Assembly (NCBI GenBank): GCA_022340425.1
Contig: JAJDNY010000133.1
Coordinates: 1-35,028, forward strand
Length of the DNA stretch: 35,028 nt
Reading direction: 5' to 3'
Source: Desulfobacteraceae bacterium
GTDB taxonomy: Bacteria; Desulfobacterota; Desulfobacteria; Desulfobacterales; JAABRJ01
The translations under genes and the position numbers were made by a program. Shown here piece by piece: positions 5,567-14,031 of the stretch. Under the pieces are notes generated by a model. That model saw only the letters and a list, made by a program, of their open reading frames with translations, was not told where the DNA came from and ran no database searches. Numbering within the stretch: position 1 is the stretch's first letter; the number at the start of each line of letters is the position of its first letter.

Positions 5567-6907
5567 TCAGGTCGCGGCCAGGCGTTTCAGATAGGACAAC
5601 CGCTCCCAGCTGAAGGGCGCTTTCTGGCAGGGGAGGATGGCGTTGTTGGTGAAGATCGGGTCGGCGGCCAGGTCATAGCGCGAGGAAGCCACCGCCGCCG
5701 GCCACATGGCGGTGTGGGGAATGGGGCTGTAGTAGGCCAGCACCGGCGTGATGCCGGCGGCCTTGACCGTTTCGATGGATCGCGCCACGGCGGCCAGCGG
5801 CTGTCCGGGCAGCCCGGCCAGGAGGTAGGCCCCGATCTGGCGGGCGTCGAATCCCGCCCGTTTCAGGCACCCGATCCCCCGCTGGAACTCGTGGGCCGTC
5901 ACCTTGTGGTCCAGGGCGGCGCGCGCGTCAAAGGCGGTGGTCTCCAGCCCCAGGCGCAGGGTTTCAAAACCCGCCTGCATCATCAGTTCGGCGGTCGGGT
6001 CGTCGATTTCCCGGATGTGGACCGCGTTGGGGGTGTGAAAACGAACCGCCAAGCCGGCCCGGATCACCCCTTCCATGATCGGTCTGAAATGGGCGGAGCT
6101 GTTGGTCAGCAGAGCGTCGTCGTAAAACACGAATTCGCGCACCCCGAATGCATCGTGCCAGTGGCGGATCTCGGCCACCACCGCCGCCGGGCGGCGCTTG
6201 CGGCAGGCGCCCTGCAGGTAGCGCGCGGCGCAGTAAGCGCAGTCGAAGGGGCAGCCCCGGGAGGTGAGCAGACAGACATACGGCACCTGGCGCTGAAGGT
6301 CGAAGGCCGGGTAAGGGTAGGAGTCCAGCTGGTCGGGGTCGAACCGGCGCTCGGGGGTGAAACCGGTGAATTCGGCCACCAGGTCCAGCACCCGGCCCTC
6401 GCCGGGGCCGGTCAGCAGCCGGTCGGCGCCGCAGACCCGCGCGGCGTGCTGCGGGCAGAGGGTCGCGTAGATCCCGCCCAGAATGACGGTGACCTTTGGA
6501 AAGGCGGTTTTCAGGGCGGCGATGGTTTCCACCACGCCGGGGTACCAGTAGGTCATGGTGCCCGAGACCAGAATCAGGTCCGGGGGCGGCAGGGCCGCCA
6601 GGTCCTGCCGCAGCCACGCCGGCCGGATGCCGTAGCGCGAATACTGGCGCGGGATGTCCTCCAGGCCCGGCGGGTTGCCGAGCCGGGTTTTGGGGTAGGC
6701 CCCCCGGCCGTTGCGGGCCAGCGGGTCGGCGGGGGGGGCGCAGGGGTGGAAGCGGTCCAGGCAGTCGAGGTAGGACACGCGGCAGCCGTGCAGGCGCAAA
6801 ATCGCCGCCAGGGTCAAGAGCCCCATGGGTTTGGCCCAGAAATCGAAGGCTGCGAAATCGTGGATCCAGGGGTTGACCAGCAGAATGCGTGGCGCTGCGG
6901 GGGTCAA
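5567..6907 (-). CDS. B12-binding-type radical SAM protein
   Basis: A 446-residue protein with an N-terminal Rossmann-like domain of the cobalamin-binding type (ILLVNPW near residue 8; later VILGGIYATLCPQHAA). The central radical SAM domain carries CPFDCAYC (CX3CX2C), preceded by VCLLTSRG. The canonical DXHXXG cobalamin-ligand motif is not obvious, as in many members of this large group. ETLRLGLETT matches the SAM-contacting strand. The substrate is unknown; it is neither AhbC nor AhbD by architecture. It is the last gene of the minus-strand run, 19 bp after ahbB. The only start available near the N-terminus is a TTG at 6907, without a good ribosome site, so initiation probably depends on coupling to ahbB. 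The TTG assignment is moderately uncertain. Confidence 0.85.
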   Translation of the reverse strand: MTPAAPRILLVNPWIHDFAAFDFWAKPMGLLTLAAILRLHGCRVSYLDCLDRFHPCAPPADPLARNGRGAYPKTRLGNPPGLEDIPRQYSRYGIRPAWLRQDLAALPPPDLILVSGTMTYWYPGVVETIAALKTAFPKVTVILGGIYATLCPQHAARVCGADRLLTGPGEGRVLDLVAEFTGFTPERRFDPDQLDSYPYPAFDLQRQVPYVCLLTSRGCPFDCAYCAARYLQGACRKRRPAAVVAEIRHWHDAFGVREFVFYDDALLTNSSAHFRPIMEGVIRAGLAVRFHTPNAVHIREIDDPTAELMMQAGFETLRLGLETTAFDARAALDHKVTAHEFQRGIGCLKRAGFDARQIGAYLLAGLPGQPLAAVARSIETVKAAGITPVLAYYSPIPHTAMWPAAVASSRYDLAADPIFTNNAILPCQKAPFSWERLSYLKRLAAT

Positions 6908-6926: not shown

Positions 6927-7412
6927 TCAATCGTCTTCGTCCAGCGCGGGAAAATAGGCCATGGAGGTTTTTTTCAGTTCGCGGCGGCTGAAAAGCAGGG
7001 TGTACTCCGCCACGCCGGCTGCGGCCGACATCCGGCGCGCGGCATTGCGGCAGGCGGCCTCGTCCCTGGCATGGATCATGGTGTAGAGATTGTAGGGCCA
7101 CTGGGGGGTGGGGTTGCGGCGGTAGCAGTGGGAGACCTCGCCGAAGCCCGCCATTTGGTCGCCGACCGCATCGATCTGCTCCTCGTCCACCTGCCAGGCC
7201 ACCATGGCGTTGGCTTCGAATCCGGACTTCTGGTGGCGCAGGGTGGCGCCGAAGCGGCGGATGACCCCCATCCGGCAAAGGCTTTCAAGGCGCTCCAGGA
7301 GCGCTTCCTCGGAGATCTCCAGGCTGCGGGCGATGTCCCGGTAGGGCCGGGCGGTGATCGGCAGGTCCCCCTGGATGGATGAGATGATCTTTTTGTCCAG
7401 TTCGGTCAGCAT
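6927..7412 (-). CDS. ahbB: Siroheme decarboxylase subunit, AhbB-like (Lrp/AsnC fold)
   Basis: A 161-residue protein with an N-terminal winged-helix region (about residues 1-60) and a C-terminal ferredoxin-like domain, the arrangement of Lrp/AsnC-type AhbA/AhbB. AhbA and AhbB form a heterodimer that decarboxylates siroheme to didecarboxysiroheme in the alternative heme pathway of sulfate reducers and archaea. GEVSHCYRRNPTPQWPYNLYTMIHA-like sequence at residues 91-115 (His95, Tyr97, Arg98/99, the WPYNLYTM strand) is characteristic of AhbB and absent from ordinary transcriptional Lrp regulators. No AhbA, AhbC or AhbD partner is in the window. It lies 42 bp after mtnA and 19 bp before a radical SAM gene. 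A role as a regulator of the salvage operon is possible but less likely. Confidence 0.82.
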   Translation of the reverse strand: MLTELDKKIISSIQGDLPITARPYRDIARSLEISEEALLERLESLCRMGVIRRFGATLRHQKSGFEANAMVAWQVDEEQIDAVGDQMAGFGEVSHCYRRNPTPQWPYNLYTMIHARDEAACRNAARRMSAAAGVAEYTLLFSRRELKKTSMAYFPALDEDD

Positions 7413-7454: not shown

Positions 7455-8564
<1,110 letters not shown>

Positions 8565-8582: not shown

Positions 8583-10295
8583 TCAGGTTACGAAAAGGGG
8601 AACCGGCGCAAACCGGTTGACGTCGATCAGCCCCCGGTCGGTGATCTTCAGCTCGGGGATCACCGCCAGGGCCAGAAAGGACAGGGTCATAAAGGGGTCC
8701 CTAAGGGGTGTGCCGAGGTCCCATGCCGCCCGCAGCAGCCCGTCCAGGGCGGCTTTGACCCTCTCCACCGGCTCCGGCGACATCAGGCCGGCCACCGGCA
8801 GAGGCAATTGCGCCCGGACCCCGCGCCGGCCGACGGCGACCAGCCCCCCGCCGGTCGCCACCAGGGCCGCCAGTGCGGTCCGCATGGCGCCGTCATCGGC
8901 ACCGACAACGATCAGGTTGTGGGCATCGTGGGCCACGCTGGCGGCCAGGGCCCCCCGTTTGAGCCCCAGGCCGCGGACAAAGCCGATGCCGGTGCGGGCG
9001 CTTCCCGTATAGCGCTCGACCACCGCGATCTTGAGCAGGTCGCGCCCGGGGTCGGCAACCGCGGCCCCGTCCCGGGCGGTGACCTCCAGGATCTCCTGCC
9101 GGGTGACGATCTGGTCGGGCACGATCACGATCACCCGCATCCGCTCGCCCTCAAGCGGGACCCGCAGGTCCACCCGCTCCAGGGGAACGTCCATGCGGGT
9201 GGGGAAAACCGCGGCGGCCGGCGCCGGGCGGGCCACGGTCATCCGGCCGTCGCGGGCGACCTCCACGCCGCGGACATAGACCGCCTCGATTCGCGGGCAG
9301 CCCAGATCGGAGAAGACCACCAGGTCGGCCTGTCGGCCGGGCGCGATGGCCCCTAAAGTTTTCAGGCCGAAGTACTCCGCCGGGTTGAGGGTCGCCATCT
9401 GGATGGCGGTCATGGGGTCGAGCCCCAGGCGGATGGCCTGGCGCACGATGCTGTCGATGTGGCCCTCGTCCAGCAGGTCGTGGGGGTGGCGGTCGTCCGT
9501 GCACCACATCATGCGGTGGGCGCTGTGGCGGTCCACCACCGGCAGCAGCGCGGCCAGATTGCGGGCGGCGCTGCCCTCGCGGATCATGATGTGCATCCCG
9601 GCGGCGAGTTTGGCGCGCGCCTCGGCCGCCGTGGCGCACTCATGGTCGCTGGCGATGCCCGCCGCGGCATAGGCGTTGAGGTCCAGCCCGGCCAGGCCGG
9701 GCGCGTGGCCGTCGGCCGGTTTGCGGTGGCTCCGGGCGATTTCGATTTTGCGCAAGACCTCCGGGTCGGCGTGCAGCACGCCGGGGAAGTTCATCATTTC
9801 CCCCAGGGCCACGACCCGCTCGTCTTCAAAATAAGGGGTCAGCTCGCGGGCGCCCAGGGCGGCCCCGGCGGTCTCCATCGGTGTCGCCGGTACGCAGGAC
9901 GGGAGGGTGAAAAAAACGTTCAGGGGCTGGCCGGTGGACGCCCGCAGCATGGTGTCGATGCCCTCCGCGCCCAAGACGTTGGCGATCTCGTGGGGATCGG
10001 CGCACACCGTGGTGGTGCCGCAGGGCACCACCGCCCGGGCAAATTCGGCCACCACCGTCATGGCGCTTTCGATGTGCACGTGGGGGTCGATGAAGCCCGG
10101 GGCCAGGTAGCGGCCCCCCAGGTCGATGCGGCGGCGGCCCGTGTAGGGCCCGATCCCCAGGATCGTGCCGGCGCTCACGGCCAGGTCGCCGTTGACGATT
10201 TGACCGGAAAAGACATCGAGGATGCGGGCGTTTTCAAAGACCAGTTCGGCGGGTTGTTCCCCCCGGGCCGAGCGGATGATGTGGGCAAGTGTCAT
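8583..10295 (-). CDS. ade: Adenine deaminase (amidohydrolase type)
   Basis: A 570-residue metal-dependent amidohydrolase that converts adenine to hypoxanthine and ammonia. The length and motif order match bacterial Ade: APGFIDPHVHIES (metal-binding HXH), PCGTTTVCADPHEIANV, MNFPGVL, the central DDRHPHDL segment, and a C-terminal domain with VAHDAHNLIVVGADD and EPVERV. The start ATG at 10295 is preceded by GAGGAC, which overlaps the stop of the upstream deaminase, so the two are coupled. In this operon it would recycle adenine, for example any released by MTA or SAH nucleosidase, into hypoxanthine, the same product as the predicted phosphorylase route. Confidence 0.95.
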   Translation of the reverse strand: MTLAHIIRSARGEQPAELVFENARILDVFSGQIVNGDLAVSAGTILGIGPYTGRRRIDLGGRYLAPGFIDPHVHIESAMTVVAEFARAVVPCGTTTVCADPHEIANVLGAEGIDTMLRASTGQPLNVFFTLPSCVPATPMETAGAALGARELTPYFEDERVVALGEMMNFPGVLHADPEVLRKIEIARSHRKPADGHAPGLAGLDLNAYAAAGIASDHECATAAEARAKLAAGMHIMIREGSAARNLAALLPVVDRHSAHRMMWCTDDRHPHDLLDEGHIDSIVRQAIRLGLDPMTAIQMATLNPAEYFGLKTLGAIAPGRQADLVVFSDLGCPRIEAVYVRGVEVARDGRMTVARPAPAAAVFPTRMDVPLERVDLRVPLEGERMRVIVIVPDQIVTRQEILEVTARDGAAVADPGRDLLKIAVVERYTGSARTGIGFVRGLGLKRGALAASVAHDAHNLIVVGADDGAMRTALAALVATGGGLVAVGRRGVRAQLPLPVAGLMSPEPVERVKAALDGLLRAAWDLGTPLRDPFMTLSFLALAVIPELKITDRGLIDVNRFAPVPLFVT

Positions 10296-10305
10296 CGACG
10301 GGTCC

Positions 10306-11631
10306 TCAGCTGCCGTTGGAAGGGCGGATCTTGCGGGCGATGGCCGTCACCTGGCGGCGGATTTCGGCCAGATCGAGGCTTTGCAGCCGGCCATCGGCCA
10401 CCAGGCGCCGCCCGGCCACGAGGACTTCCCGGACGTCGTCGCCGCGGGCGGCGTAGACCAGGTGCGAGGCCGGGTGGTAGAGGGGCACCAGGTGGGGCGC
10501 ATCGGCGGCCAAGACGATGATGTCGGCGGCCTTGTCGATTTCAAGCGAGCCGGTGACCGTGCCGAGGCCGATGGCCTCGGCGCCGCGGATGGTGGCCATC
10601 TCGACCACGGTCCGGGCCGGGCAGGCCGTCGGGTCGCCGCTTTTAACCTTGTGGAGCTTGGCCGCGGTGTCCATCTCGTGCAGCAGGTCGAGGTCGTTGT
10701 TGCTGGCGCAGCCGTCGGTGCCCAGGCCCACGCTGATCCCGGCCGCCAGGAAGTCGGTGACCGGCGCAATCCCGCTGGCGAGCTTCATGTTGCTTTGCGG
10801 GTTGTGGGAGATTGCGGCCCCGCCGGCGGCGATGCGCGCGATGTCGCGGCCGTCGGCCCAGACGCAGTGCACCAGGAGGGTCCCCTGGCTCAGAAGGCCC
10901 AAGCGGTCCAGGAAGGCGATGGGCGAGAGGCCGTGGTTGGCGCGGCTTGCGTCGCACTCCTGGCGGGTTTCGGCGGCGTGGATCTGGAAGAGCGCGCCGT
11001 GTTCGGCGGCCAGCGCCTTGGCCGCGCGCAGCGTCTCGGGGCTGCAGGTGTAGGGCGAATGACAGAAGACCGCCGGGGTGATCAGCGGCGTCCGCGAGCG
11101 CCAGCGCACCAGGAAATCGCGGGCCGCGGTGATATTGTCCCCGGGGTCGGGAACGCCCGGGGCCGGGAAATCGATCACCCCCTGGCCCAGCACCGCCCGC
11201 ATCCCCGCGTCCGCCACGGCCGCGGCCACCTGGTCCTCCAGGAAATAGCCGTCGCAGCAGGTGGTCGTGCCCGACAGGAGCATTTCGGCGCATGCCAGGC
11301 GGGCGCCCCAGCCCACCGTAGCAGGGGTGATATGCCGGCCCTCCGCCGGGAAGATATGGTCGTGCAGCCATGTCTCCAGGGGCAGGTCGTCGGCCAGGCC
11401 GCGGAAAAGGGTCATCGGCAGATGGGTGTGGGTGTTGACCAGTCCCGGCATGATGATGCCGCCGCGGGCGTCGATGCACGTTTCGGCCCGCGGTCGTGCG
11501 CCGTCCGGGTCGACCGGTCCCAGGGCGGCGACCCGGCCGCTGCGGATCCCCACATACCCCGGGGAAAAGATGTCAAAGGCCGGGTTGACGGTGAGCACGA
11601 TGCCGTTGTGAACCAGGGTGTCGTAGGTCAT
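10306..11631 (-). CDS. mtaD: MTA/SAH deaminase family amidohydrolase, copy 1
   Basis: A 441-residue amidohydrolase of the 5'-methylthioadenosine/S-adenosylhomocysteine deaminase family, which removes the 6-amino group to give MTI or S-inosylhomocysteine. Metal and catalytic residues are in place: PGLVNTHTHLPM (HXH), the HSPYTCSP segment, IHAAE (His and the proton-transferring Glu), SHNPQSNMKLASG, and GTDGCASNNDLD (Asp ligand). It is the same length as the adjacent copy 2 and clearly homologous, but differs around the substrate pocket (HAAETRQECD against HLAETAGEVA; GQGVIDFPAPG against GEVLFDFPSPN). The pair may therefore split substrates (MTA, SAH, adenosine or another nucleoside). The gap to copy 2 is 10 bp. 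Which substrate each prefers cannot be decided here. Confidence 0.9.
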   Translation of the reverse strand: MTYDTLVHNGIVLTVNPAFDIFSPGYVGIRSGRVAALGPVDPDGARPRAETCIDARGGIIMPGLVNTHTHLPMTLFRGLADDLPLETWLHDHIFPAEGRHITPATVGWGARLACAEMLLSGTTTCCDGYFLEDQVAAAVADAGMRAVLGQGVIDFPAPGVPDPGDNITAARDFLVRWRSRTPLITPAVFCHSPYTCSPETLRAAKALAAEHGALFQIHAAETRQECDASRANHGLSPIAFLDRLGLLSQGTLLVHCVWADGRDIARIAAGGAAISHNPQSNMKLASGIAPVTDFLAAGISVGLGTDGCASNNDLDLLHEMDTAAKLHKVKSGDPTACPARTVVEMATIRGAEAIGLGTVTGSLEIDKAADIIVLAADAPHLVPLYHPASHLVYAARGDDVREVLVAGRRLVADGRLQSLDLAEIRRQVTAIARKIRPSNGS

Positions 11632-11641
11632 GGGGCGGCTT

Positions 11642-12967
11642 TCAGTTCGCCATGGATCCGGCCCCGAGCCGGGCTGCGATCGCCCGGACCTCTGCGGTGA
11701 CCCGTTCGAGATCCAGGCTCCGGAGTCCGCGGTTTTCCATGACCAGCCGCCCGTTGATGATCACCGTGTCCACGTCGCCGCCGCGGGCGGCGTAGACCAG
11801 GTGCGAGGCGGGGTTGTAGAGCGGGGTCAGGTGGGGCTTGCGGCAGTCGATGACGATCAGATCGGCCCGTTTGCCGGGCTCCAACGACCCGGTGATCGTC
11901 TCCAGGCCCAGGGCGCGGGCGCCGTTGATGGTGGCCATTTTCAGCACCTGCTCGGCCGGCAGGGCGGTGGGGTCCAGGGTGGCCACCTTGTGGAGTTTGG
12001 CGGCCGTGTCCATTTCCAGAAAGAGGTCCAGATCGTTGTTGCTGGCGCACCCGTCGGTGCCCAGGGCGACGCACAGGCCGGCAGCCAGGAGTGCCGGGAC
12101 CGGGGCGATCCCCGAGGCGAGCTTCATGTTGCTTTCCGGGTTGTGGGCGATCTTGACATCCGCCGTCTGCAGGAGCGCGATGTCCTCGGGGGTCAGCTGG
12201 ACGCAGTGGCAGGCCAGCAGGCGGGGCTCCAGGATGCCGAGCTGGGCCAGATGGCCCACCGGCGTGCGGCCGTGGCGCGACCTGATCCGGGCTACCTCGC
12301 CGGCGGTCTCCGCAAGGTGGGTGACCAGGGGCAGCTGGAGTTCGCGCGCCAGATCGGCTGACTGGCAGAGCAGCTCGGGGGCGCACAGGTAGGGCGAGTG
12401 GGGTTCCACGGCCACCCCGATCAGGGGATCGCCGGCCCAGCGGGCGGCCATGCGCCGGGTATAGGCCAACCCGTTTTCCGCACGGCCGTAATTGGGCGAG
12501 GGAAAGTCGAAGAGGACCTCGCCCACCACGGCCCGCAGGCCGGCTGCGTGGGCGGCGCGGGCCACGGCATCCGCGAACAGGTACATGTCGCAGAAGCAGG
12601 TGGTCCCCGAAAGGATCATTTCGGCGCAGCCCAGCAGGGCCCCCTGGTGGACGATCTCTTCGGTCAGGCGGGATTCGGCCGGGAAGATGTGGTCGTTTAG
12701 CCAGGTCATCAGGGGCAGGTCGTCGGCCAGCCCCCGGAAGCAGGTCATGGCGGCGTGGGTGTGGGTGTTGATCAGCCCGGGCATGATGATGCCGCCGTGG
12801 GCATCGATGATTTTTTTGGCCGGAATCGCGGCCAGGCGTTCGGCCGGCGCGACCGCCAGGATGCGATCGCCGGCAACCGCCACCGCCCCGTCATCGATCC
12901 GGGTGCCGGCGCCGTCCATGGTCAAAACGGTGCCGTGGGTGACCAGAATATCGACGCCAGGCGGCAT
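11642..12967 (-). CDS. mtaD: MTA/SAH deaminase family amidohydrolase, copy 2
   Basis: A 441-residue amidohydrolase paralogous to its downstream neighbour. Motifs are PGLINTHTHAAM (HXH), PHSPYLCAPE, THLAETAGE, AHNPESNMKLASG and GTDGCASNNDLD, so the metal site is complete. HLAET and the NPESNMKLASG loop are closest to the best-studied MtaD enzymes, which makes this copy the better candidate for MTA/SAH deamination. The ATG at 12967 is preceded by AAGGGA. The upstream leader, only 13 bp from the start codon, is occupied by one copy of the dispersed hairpin repeat, which separates this gene from the phosphorylase gene. Confidence 0.92.
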   Translation of the reverse strand: MPPGVDILVTHGTVLTMDGAGTRIDDGAVAVAGDRILAVAPAERLAAIPAKKIIDAHGGIIMPGLINTHTHAAMTCFRGLADDLPLMTWLNDHIFPAESRLTEEIVHQGALLGCAEMILSGTTCFCDMYLFADAVARAAHAAGLRAVVGEVLFDFPSPNYGRAENGLAYTRRMAARWAGDPLIGVAVEPHSPYLCAPELLCQSADLARELQLPLVTHLAETAGEVARIRSRHGRTPVGHLAQLGILEPRLLACHCVQLTPEDIALLQTADVKIAHNPESNMKLASGIAPVPALLAAGLCVALGTDGCASNNDLDLFLEMDTAAKLHKVATLDPTALPAEQVLKMATINGARALGLETITGSLEPGKRADLIVIDCRKPHLTPLYNPASHLVYAARGGDVDTVIINGRLVMENRGLRSLDLERVTAEVRAIAARLGAGSMAN

Positions 12968-12980
12968 GCGGATCCCTTTC

Positions 12981-13133
12981 TTGACAGCTCCGAAAAAAAT
13001 CCAATTTCCGCGTTGCGCTGCATCTCGAAGTCGCTGCGGCGTACATAAGTACGCCTCACGCCGCTGAGATTTGCACGCCTTGAAATTGGCTTTTTTACGA
13101 AACTGTCTGGTTTTTGACTTATTACCGTTTCAT
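12981..13133 (-). repeat. Dispersed hairpin repeat, copy A
   Basis: A 153-bp non-coding element, read on the minus strand from ATGAAACGGTAA to GAGCTGTCAA. It matches copy B at 25365-25516 along its full length, at roughly 85% by eye. It folds into a long hairpin: outer arms GACAG/CTGTC, then CCAATTTC/GAAATTGG, a middle ATCTC/GAGAT, and an inner GGCGTAC-TTAT-GTACGCC hairpin. It lies between the phosphorylase gene and mtaD copy 2 and ends 13 bp before the latter's start codon. It has no coding potential and no transposase, so it resembles a MITE- or REP-like mobile or regulatory repeat. Confidence 0.88.
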
Positions 13134-13176
13134 CTTTCTTGGCGGCGCTTGGGCCGGAGGGCGACCTGCCCCGGCC

Positions 13177-14031
13177 TCAGGCGCCGGAGAGTTCGGCCGC
13201 GATCCCTGAAATGATGCGGCCCAATTGCGGCGCTGCCTTTTCGGCCACCGCCACAATCGCCTCGAAGCTGGCCGGGGCCGGGCGGTCCGGGTCGTTTAAG
13301 TTGGTGATGGTGGAAACCCCGAGCACCCGCATGCCTCCGTGAACCGCGGCGATGGTCTCCTGGACGGTGGACATGCCGACGGCATCGGCGCCGATGGTCC
13401 TGAGGAATCGGATTTCAGCCGGGGTTTCCAGCGAAGGCCCCTTGAGGCCGACGTAGACGCCTTGGGTCAGGGGAATGCCCGCCGCTTTCGCCACCCTGCG
13501 CGCGGCTGCGGCCAGCGCCGGATCGTACACCCGGCTCATGTCCGGAAATCGCAGCCCCCAGCGGTCGATATTGGGTCCCACCAGGGGGTTTTCGCCGGTC
13601 AGATTGATGTGATCGGCGATCAGCATCAGGTCGCCCGGATGAAAAGCGGGGTTCAGGCCCCCGGCGGCGTTGGACACGATCAGGGTGTCCACCCCCAGCG
13701 CCTGGAGCACGCGCACGGGAAAGGCCACCGCCAGCGGGCTGTGGCCCTCGTAGAGGTGAAAGCGGCCCTGAAGGGCGAGGGTGGGGGTTCCGGCCATGGT
13801 GCCGCACAGCAGGCGGCCATGGTGGCCCTGAACGGTGGTGGACGGAAAATGTGGGATCTGACGGTAAGGCAGCGTCGCGCTGACCGCCAGGTCGCCGATC
13901 ACCCCGCCGAGGCCGGTCCCCGTCATCAGCCCCAGCCGGGGCGGGGCGTTTAGGCGCGCAGCGATGAACTTGGCGGCTTGCTGAACGTGACGCTGATAGG
14001 TTGCAAGCGGTTTACCCGTGGCTATCGGCAC
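13177..14031 (-). CDS. PNP/MTAP-family phosphorylase, predicted to prefer methylthioinosine
   Basis: A 284-residue member of the trimeric purine nucleoside phosphorylase/MTA phosphorylase family. Seen: the phosphate loop GTGLGG (residues 38-43), the GRFHLYEGH segment with His92, VSNAAGGLN, GPSLETPAE with the base-binding Glu202, VGMSTVQE with Met220, and TITN with Asn244. Asn at that site marks 6-oxopurine enzymes, whereas MTA phosphorylases have Asp. Twelve residues later, where PNPs carry the His that contacts the ribose 5'-OH (LSHAEV-type motif), this protein has Phe256 (ASFEAI); MTA phosphorylases have a hydrophobic residue there. I infer MTI phosphorylase activity; plain inosine/guanosine phosphorylase is the alternative. 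The start is GTG, fixed by AGGAGG at 14039-14044. Confidence 0.9.
   Translation of the reverse strand: MPIATGKPLATYQRHVQQAAKFIAARLNAPPRLGLMTGTGLGGVIGDLAVSATLPYRQIPHFPSTTVQGHHGRLLCGTMAGTPTLALQGRFHLYEGHSPLAVAFPVRVLQALGVDTLIVSNAAGGLNPAFHPGDLMLIADHINLTGENPLVGPNIDRWGLRFPDMSRVYDPALAAAARRVAKAAGIPLTQGVYVGLKGPSLETPAEIRFLRTIGADAVGMSTVQETIAAVHGGMRVLGVSTITNLNDPDRPAPASFEAIVAVAEKAAPQLGRIISGIAAELSGA

Follow-up and report, generated by a model that had tools for sequence, protein, structure and literature searches.

The window, a stretch of 35,028 nucleotides, carries an operon on the minus strand in which five genes follow one another in the order phosphorylase, D1, D2, ade and mtnA. The first ORF (13177..14031, minus strand) encodes a phosphorylase of the purine nucleoside phosphorylase (PNP) family with 284 amino acids, for which activity on 5'-modified inosines, namely 5'-methylthioinosine (MTI) or 5'-deoxyinosine, is proposed. 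It has a GTG start codon with an AGGAG motif 8 nt upstream, matches the Pfam domain PNP_UDP_1 (PF01048; E 8e-55) and yields a confident AlphaFold model (pLDDT 92, modelled as a monomer); the ORF is accepted as real.

D1 (11642..12967, minus strand) and D2 (10306..11631, minus strand) encode MtaD-like amidohydrolases, whose nearest solved relatives are the deaminases 4DYK/4GBD and 4F0R, of which only 4F0R bears the title of a 5'-methylthioadenosine (MTA)/SAH deaminase; the match of D1 to these has an E of about 5e-97. Both remain below the NCBIfam cut-offs of the MTA/SAH deaminase equivalog profiles, with 501 bits against 609 for NF004701 and 308 against 779 for NF012037 in the case of D1. From profiles, solved relatives and genome distribution, D1 is proposed as an MTA deaminase that functionally replaces MTA phosphorylase (MTAP); from the first two of these and from its place beside the phosphorylase in MTAP-only genomes too, its paralogue D2 is proposed to deaminate another 5'-modified adenosine, most likely 5'-deoxyadenosine. 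The remaining genes, ade (8583..10295, minus strand; TIGR01178, 621.6 bits, cut-off 472.5) and mtnA (7455..8564, minus strand; TIGR00512, 409.4 bits, cut-off 279), encode adenine deaminase and S-methyl-5-thioribose-1-phosphate isomerase, respectively.

The phosphorylase and D1 genes are separated by 209 bp and D1 and D2 by 11 bp, and the gaps after D1 range from 11 to 43 bp. Here as in many relatives, mtnA is closely followed by genes for an AhbB-like siroheme decarboxylase subunit (6927-7412, minus strand) and a B12-binding radical SAM protein (5567-6907, minus strand), with no evident tie to nucleoside salvage. The whole order, from the phosphorylase through D1, D2, ade and mtnA to the AhbB and radical SAM genes, is repeated in many loci. 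A search of a literature collection for a cluster of this kind in sulfate reducers gave no relevant report.

Family and active site of the phosphorylase

The phosphorylase belongs to the trimeric PNP subfamily and not to the MTAP family. It exceeds the cut-offs of the NCBIfam models PRK08202 (355.1 bits, cut-off 218), TIGR01697 for the trimeric PNP subfamily (301.6 bits, cut-off 197.1) and TIGR01700 for inosine/guanosine PNPs (310.8 bits, cut-off 293.35), and the nearest folds to its model are trimeric PNPs, with 4M1E, 4LNA and others at Z 39-42. Scores below cut-off for the MTAP model TIGR01694 (65.3 bits against 274.85) and for NF006599, the family of the Pseudomonas aeruginosa MTI phosphorylase PaMTIP (51.9 bits against 223), ruled out membership in either family; the base site also holds Asn rather than the Asp of MTAP. 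Standard models such as PRK08202 and TIGR01700 thus label the protein plain PNP, as had been expected; given the function proposed below, many enzymes of this kind probably carry the wrong label.

An alignment with human PNP and PaMTIP (3OZB), both checked against their PDB chains, showed that the catalytic, phosphate-site and base-site residues are kept (T39, R90, H92, N121, A122, E202, S221 and N244). Asn244, within the motif TITN (codon 13300-13302), corresponds to N243 of human PNP and N209 of PaMTIP, in agreement with its earlier placement at the 6-oxopurine position. In trimeric PNPs, a base site with an Asn of this kind and a Glu of the Glu202 type selects 6-oxopurines.

Exactly twelve residues further on, Phe256 (codon 13264-13266) corresponds to His257 of human PNP and Met221 of PaMTIP. 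The His that contacts the ribose 5'-OH in inosine/guanosine PNPs is therefore absent, and the earlier alignment by eye is upheld, with no His placed at this site. An independent check of the register came from the human mutants: because H257F (2A0X, by its PDB title) matches the phosphorylase with 238.8 bits, against 235.6 for the wild type and 234.7 for the H257G/D mutants, Phe256 is taken to be in register with His257. The spacing of twelve given in the earlier note holds for bacterial PNPs and PaMTIP; it is 14 in human PNP and 13 in human MTAP (D220 to V233).

Leu201, Met220 and Tyr94 were noted as well. Leu201, which the earlier note does not mention, corresponds to Phe200 of human PNP and Leu166 of PaMTIP, while Tyr94 and Phe162 correspond to Y88 and F159 of human PNP and are kept, as in a PNP. 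Human PNP resembles the protein in fold, catalytic residues and Asn, and its H257F mutant shares the Phe; the wild type differs by His257 and Phe200. The combination pointed out earlier is real, and PaMTIP has the same pair of Asn and hydrophobic 5' residue (Asn209, Met221 at +12). PaMTIP also has Leu in place of human Phe200 and resembles the phosphorylase in the proposed chemistry, but belongs to the MTAP family and not to the PNP subfamily.

Residue pairs and gene neighbours among relatives

A survey of 213 distinct relatives from several phyla gave three main classes by the residues at the base site and the 5' site: Asn/hydrophobic (159), Asp/hydrophobic (38, including the 4M1E/4LNA type) and Asn/His (11). 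The other five have Asn/Glu or Asn/Ser or, in two proteins of the MTAP type, Asp/Trp. With 159 of 213 relatives, the Asn/hydrophobic pair is no chance occurrence. In the order and phylum it characterises a large clade, with V, L or I and rarely F as the second residue, and is not a peculiarity of one protein. Nor is Phe256 meaningful in itself, since the nearest relative, of the same genus and 82% identical, has Val, and V, L or I prevail elsewhere. At position 201, the two hydrophobic classes have L or M, and PaMTIP has L, while most His-type PNPs have F or Y. Among the collected sequences, the His is not regained anywhere in the clade; the closest case (L226) is an Asn/His protein with Leu201. 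Three loci (L043, L051 and L110) have Glu or Ser at position 256, yet an MtaD gene still adjoins.

The closest solved structures by both sequence and fold are those of Planctomyces (4M1E) and Spirosoma (4LNA, 'PNP I'), with Z 41.6 and 40.9 and 47-48% identity. Like the phosphorylase, they have this Leu and, twelve residues after the base-site position, a hydrophobic residue, but the base site itself holds Asp, and no MtaD neighbour was found for their type. This Asp/hydrophobic sister branch, found in Planctomycetota, Gemmatimonadota, Omnitrophota and Rhodothermia, has an MTAP-like pair; mtnA occurs in 23 of 25 of its genomes, and in four of eight genomes checked the phosphorylase is the sole PNP_UDP_1 gene. 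The branch may represent a PNP-family MTA phosphorylase. In one planctomycete of the Pirellulaceae (L113), two PNP-family genes stand in tandem, the first (10001-10807) of the Asp/Val type and the second, starting at 10851, divergent with Gly at the 5' position.

Among loci with enough flanking sequence, 106 of 145 Asn/hydrophobic cases have an MtaD homologue no more than 3 kb from the phosphorylase gene, against none of 35 Asp/hydrophobic and none of 11 Asn/His cases. In a tree of the hydrophobic sequences, Asn and Asp interchange only twice, so that this correlation amounts to two independent contrasts and is weakened as independent statistical proof. One natural switch from Asn to Asp was seen at L207 (genome G404), where an Asp-type phosphorylase nested in the Asn clade has no MtaD neighbour and lies about 2 kb from an MTAP gene. 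In five loci (L054, L061, L097, L110 and L188), an MTAP gene lies on the opposite strand just past the phosphorylase and D2; in another (L035), it stands between them on the same strand. An in-frame joining of phosphorylase and D1 (L008, 1495-3258) was set aside as evidence of a natural fusion, both parts being truncated at the joint, which makes a deletion or misassembly likely.

Distribution across the order

Of the 194 genomes of the order, 148 have the phosphorylase and 164 have mtnA. With D1 called at E < 1e-145, a threshold chosen at a gap in the scores, D1 and MTAP largely exclude each other: 4 genomes have both, 106 only D1, 63 only MTAP and 21 neither (Fisher p 1.6e-27, for genomes that are not phylogenetically independent). 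Since families f8, f16, f22, f36, f67 and partly f29 contain both kinds, with D1 and MTAP alternating inside them, the replacement of MTAP took place repeatedly. Among near-complete genomes, the phosphorylase occurs in 82 of 83 with D1 and in 30 of 45 with MTAP only. The common factor for its presence is an MtaD-type deaminase. It was found in 135 of 143 genomes with such a deaminase and in 13 of the 51 without; 135 genomes have both, 8 the deaminase only, 13 the phosphorylase only and 38 neither (p 1.8e-21, for the same set of related genomes).

The genome of the window (G000) has no MTAP, and no MTA nucleosidase was recognisable among its PF01048 matches. That search returned two genes only, the phosphorylase and a remote second gene (contig C127, L004), which is short, resembles DeoD and AMP nucleosidases, stays below every NCBIfam cut-off, and with the MTA nucleosidase model reaches 31 bits where 169 would be needed. 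The D1/MTAP exclusion and the co-occurrence of D1 with the phosphorylase are most simply read as D1 and the phosphorylase doing the work of MTAP, by converting MTA to MTI and MTI to hypoxanthine and methylthioribose-1-phosphate.

The residue pair extends beyond these genomes. The 63 MTAP-only genomes include 28 without the phosphorylase, and among the 35 phosphorylases of the others, 34 are Asn/hydrophobic and one has Ser; their visible neighbour is D2, often with MTAP nearby. The pair is thus equally conserved where a true MTAP is present and D1 is absent, which does not support the earlier proposal that it predicts MTI specificity and rules it out as an MTI-only marker. What stands of that proposal is MTI as a likely physiological substrate, to which the operon, the lack of MTAP and of a recognisable nucleosidase, and the D1/MTAP exclusion all point; here the context carries more weight than the residues. 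Because the pair is also kept in genomes in which MTI does not have to be formed, we associate it with 5'-modified or 5'-deoxy inosines as a group and not with MTI alone.

Proposed function and alternatives

We consider it probable that the phosphorylase is a trimeric-PNP-family enzyme adapted to 6-oxopurine nucleosides that lack the 5'-OH, namely MTI and probably 5'-deoxyinosine, fed by D1 and D2. We infer the substrates of D1, D2 and the phosphorylase, together with a later aldolase step, as follows. The deaminases would convert MTA to MTI and probably 5'-deoxyadenosine to 5'-deoxyinosine; with phosphate, the phosphorylase would release hypoxanthine and 5-methylthioribose-1-phosphate or 5-deoxyribose-1-phosphate, and MtnA would isomerise the sugar phosphate. 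In the pocket, Asn244 and Glu202 would hold the 6-oxo base, and the hydrophobic residue in place of the 5'-OH histidine would leave room for an S-methyl or methyl group. For a subsequent DHAP shunt, the single class II aldolase of the genome, which is FucA-like, could be a candidate; in Rhodopseudomonas palustris, a class II-type aldolase acts after MtnA in this shunt (PMC5893883).

D2 also occurs in most genomes with D1; its most likely role is to provide a further 5'-modified inosine. For this route, 5'-deoxyinosine was chosen on three grounds: the pairing known from Methanocaldococcus jannaschii, the formation of 5'-deoxyadenosine as a by-product of radical SAM enzymes, and the fit to a pocket without His; it is probably a substrate. 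The M. jannaschii system resembles the proposed pathway in placing a deaminase before a shared phosphorylase, but is of a separate lineage, its MtiP being an archaeal MTAP-type enzyme. There, a 5'-deoxyadenosine deaminase acts first, and MtiP serves as one promiscuous phosphorylase for MTI and 5'-deoxyinosine (PMC6302742). In Pseudomonas, too, the MTI phosphorylase step is preceded by an MTA deaminase (PMC6302742). The Plasmodium PNP uses inosine and MTI nearly equally, the latter made by a deaminase (PMC3885546); it is comparable in having a hydrophobic 5' pocket and in splitting MTI that comes from a deaminase, but it belongs to the hexameric family, with another fold branch and other residues.

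Several points count against the preferred reading. Only one residue of the 5' site is clearly non-PNP, Tyr94 and Phe162 being kept; the family models, TIGR01700 among them, score the protein as an inosine/guanosine PNP; ade in the operon would also fit an enzyme that frees adenine directly from MTA or adenosine; and the genome counts come from related genomes, with a D1 threshold taken from a gap in the scores. The family scores also favour the leading alternative, an ordinary PNP whose main substrates are still inosine and guanosine and in which the hydrophobic residue is tolerated and merely also admits 5'-deoxy substrates. This we regard as unlikely. It would agree with the protein being the sole PNP of its subfamily in the genome and with the persistence of the pair in MTAP genomes. 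Human PNP without His257 retains 5-11% of its inosine activity, the His being called important yet dispensable (PMC7338719), and for this reason some use of inosine is likely to remain in the phosphorylase as well. An ordinary PNP, however, leaves unexplained why no collected sequence of the clade shows a return of the His, why Leu201 changes along with it, and why the gene accompanies MtaD-type deaminases and sits in an mtnA operon; absence from 28 of 63 MTAP-only genomes would also be odd for a housekeeping PNP.

A phosphorylase for which MTI is the sole relevant substrate, as the earlier note proposed, would suit the pair shared with PaMTIP, the D1/MTAP exclusion and mtnA in the operon, but we find it rather improbable, since the pair also stands beside D2 in MTAP-only genomes, where MTI need not arise, and most D1 genomes have D2 as well. 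A direct MTA or adenosine phosphorylase that feeds adenine to the neighbouring adenine deaminase is very improbable despite ade in the operon and the MTAP-like pair and frequent mtnA (23/25 genomes) of the sister Asp clade, since Asn244 with Glu202 selects 6-oxopurines and, in the sample, MtaD genes adjoin phosphorylase genes of the Asn type but none of the Asp type.

Extending the preferred reading of an enzyme for 6-oxopurine nucleosides without the 5'-OH, we put forward a broader model only tentatively, at somewhat less than even confidence. In sulfate-reducing Desulfobacterota, a separately evolved PNP-family phosphorylase would serve a hub that deaminates first: two deaminases would feed MTI and 5'-deoxyinosine to one phosphorylase and one isomerase, repeatedly replacing MTA phosphorylase, and an Asn/Asp switch in the hydrophobic-pocket branch would part the MTI type from the MTA type. 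If so, many Desulfobacterota genes annotated as plain PNP would serve the disposal of MTA and 5'-deoxyadenosine, which would explain how these anaerobes, with their many radical SAM enzymes, remove two inhibitory by-products while having neither MTA phosphorylase nor a recognisable nucleosidase. A PNP-family route to MTI phosphorolysis would be added to the MTAP-family and Plasmodium hexameric routes, and a simple two-residue rule combined with a gene-neighbour rule would be available for reannotation.

A copy of a dispersed palindromic repeat (12983..13130, core 13037-13063) lies in the 209 bp that separate the phosphorylase gene from D1. An automated inverted-repeat search of 12960-13180 reported none; the palindromic core was seen by a pattern search. 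With up to 3 mismatches allowed, the 27-bp core matches 55 places in the genome, against 0 for the reversed control, and a second copy on contig C141, 91% identical over 151 bp, precedes the FucA-like aldolase domain by about 120 bp. The copy in the gap is probably incidental.
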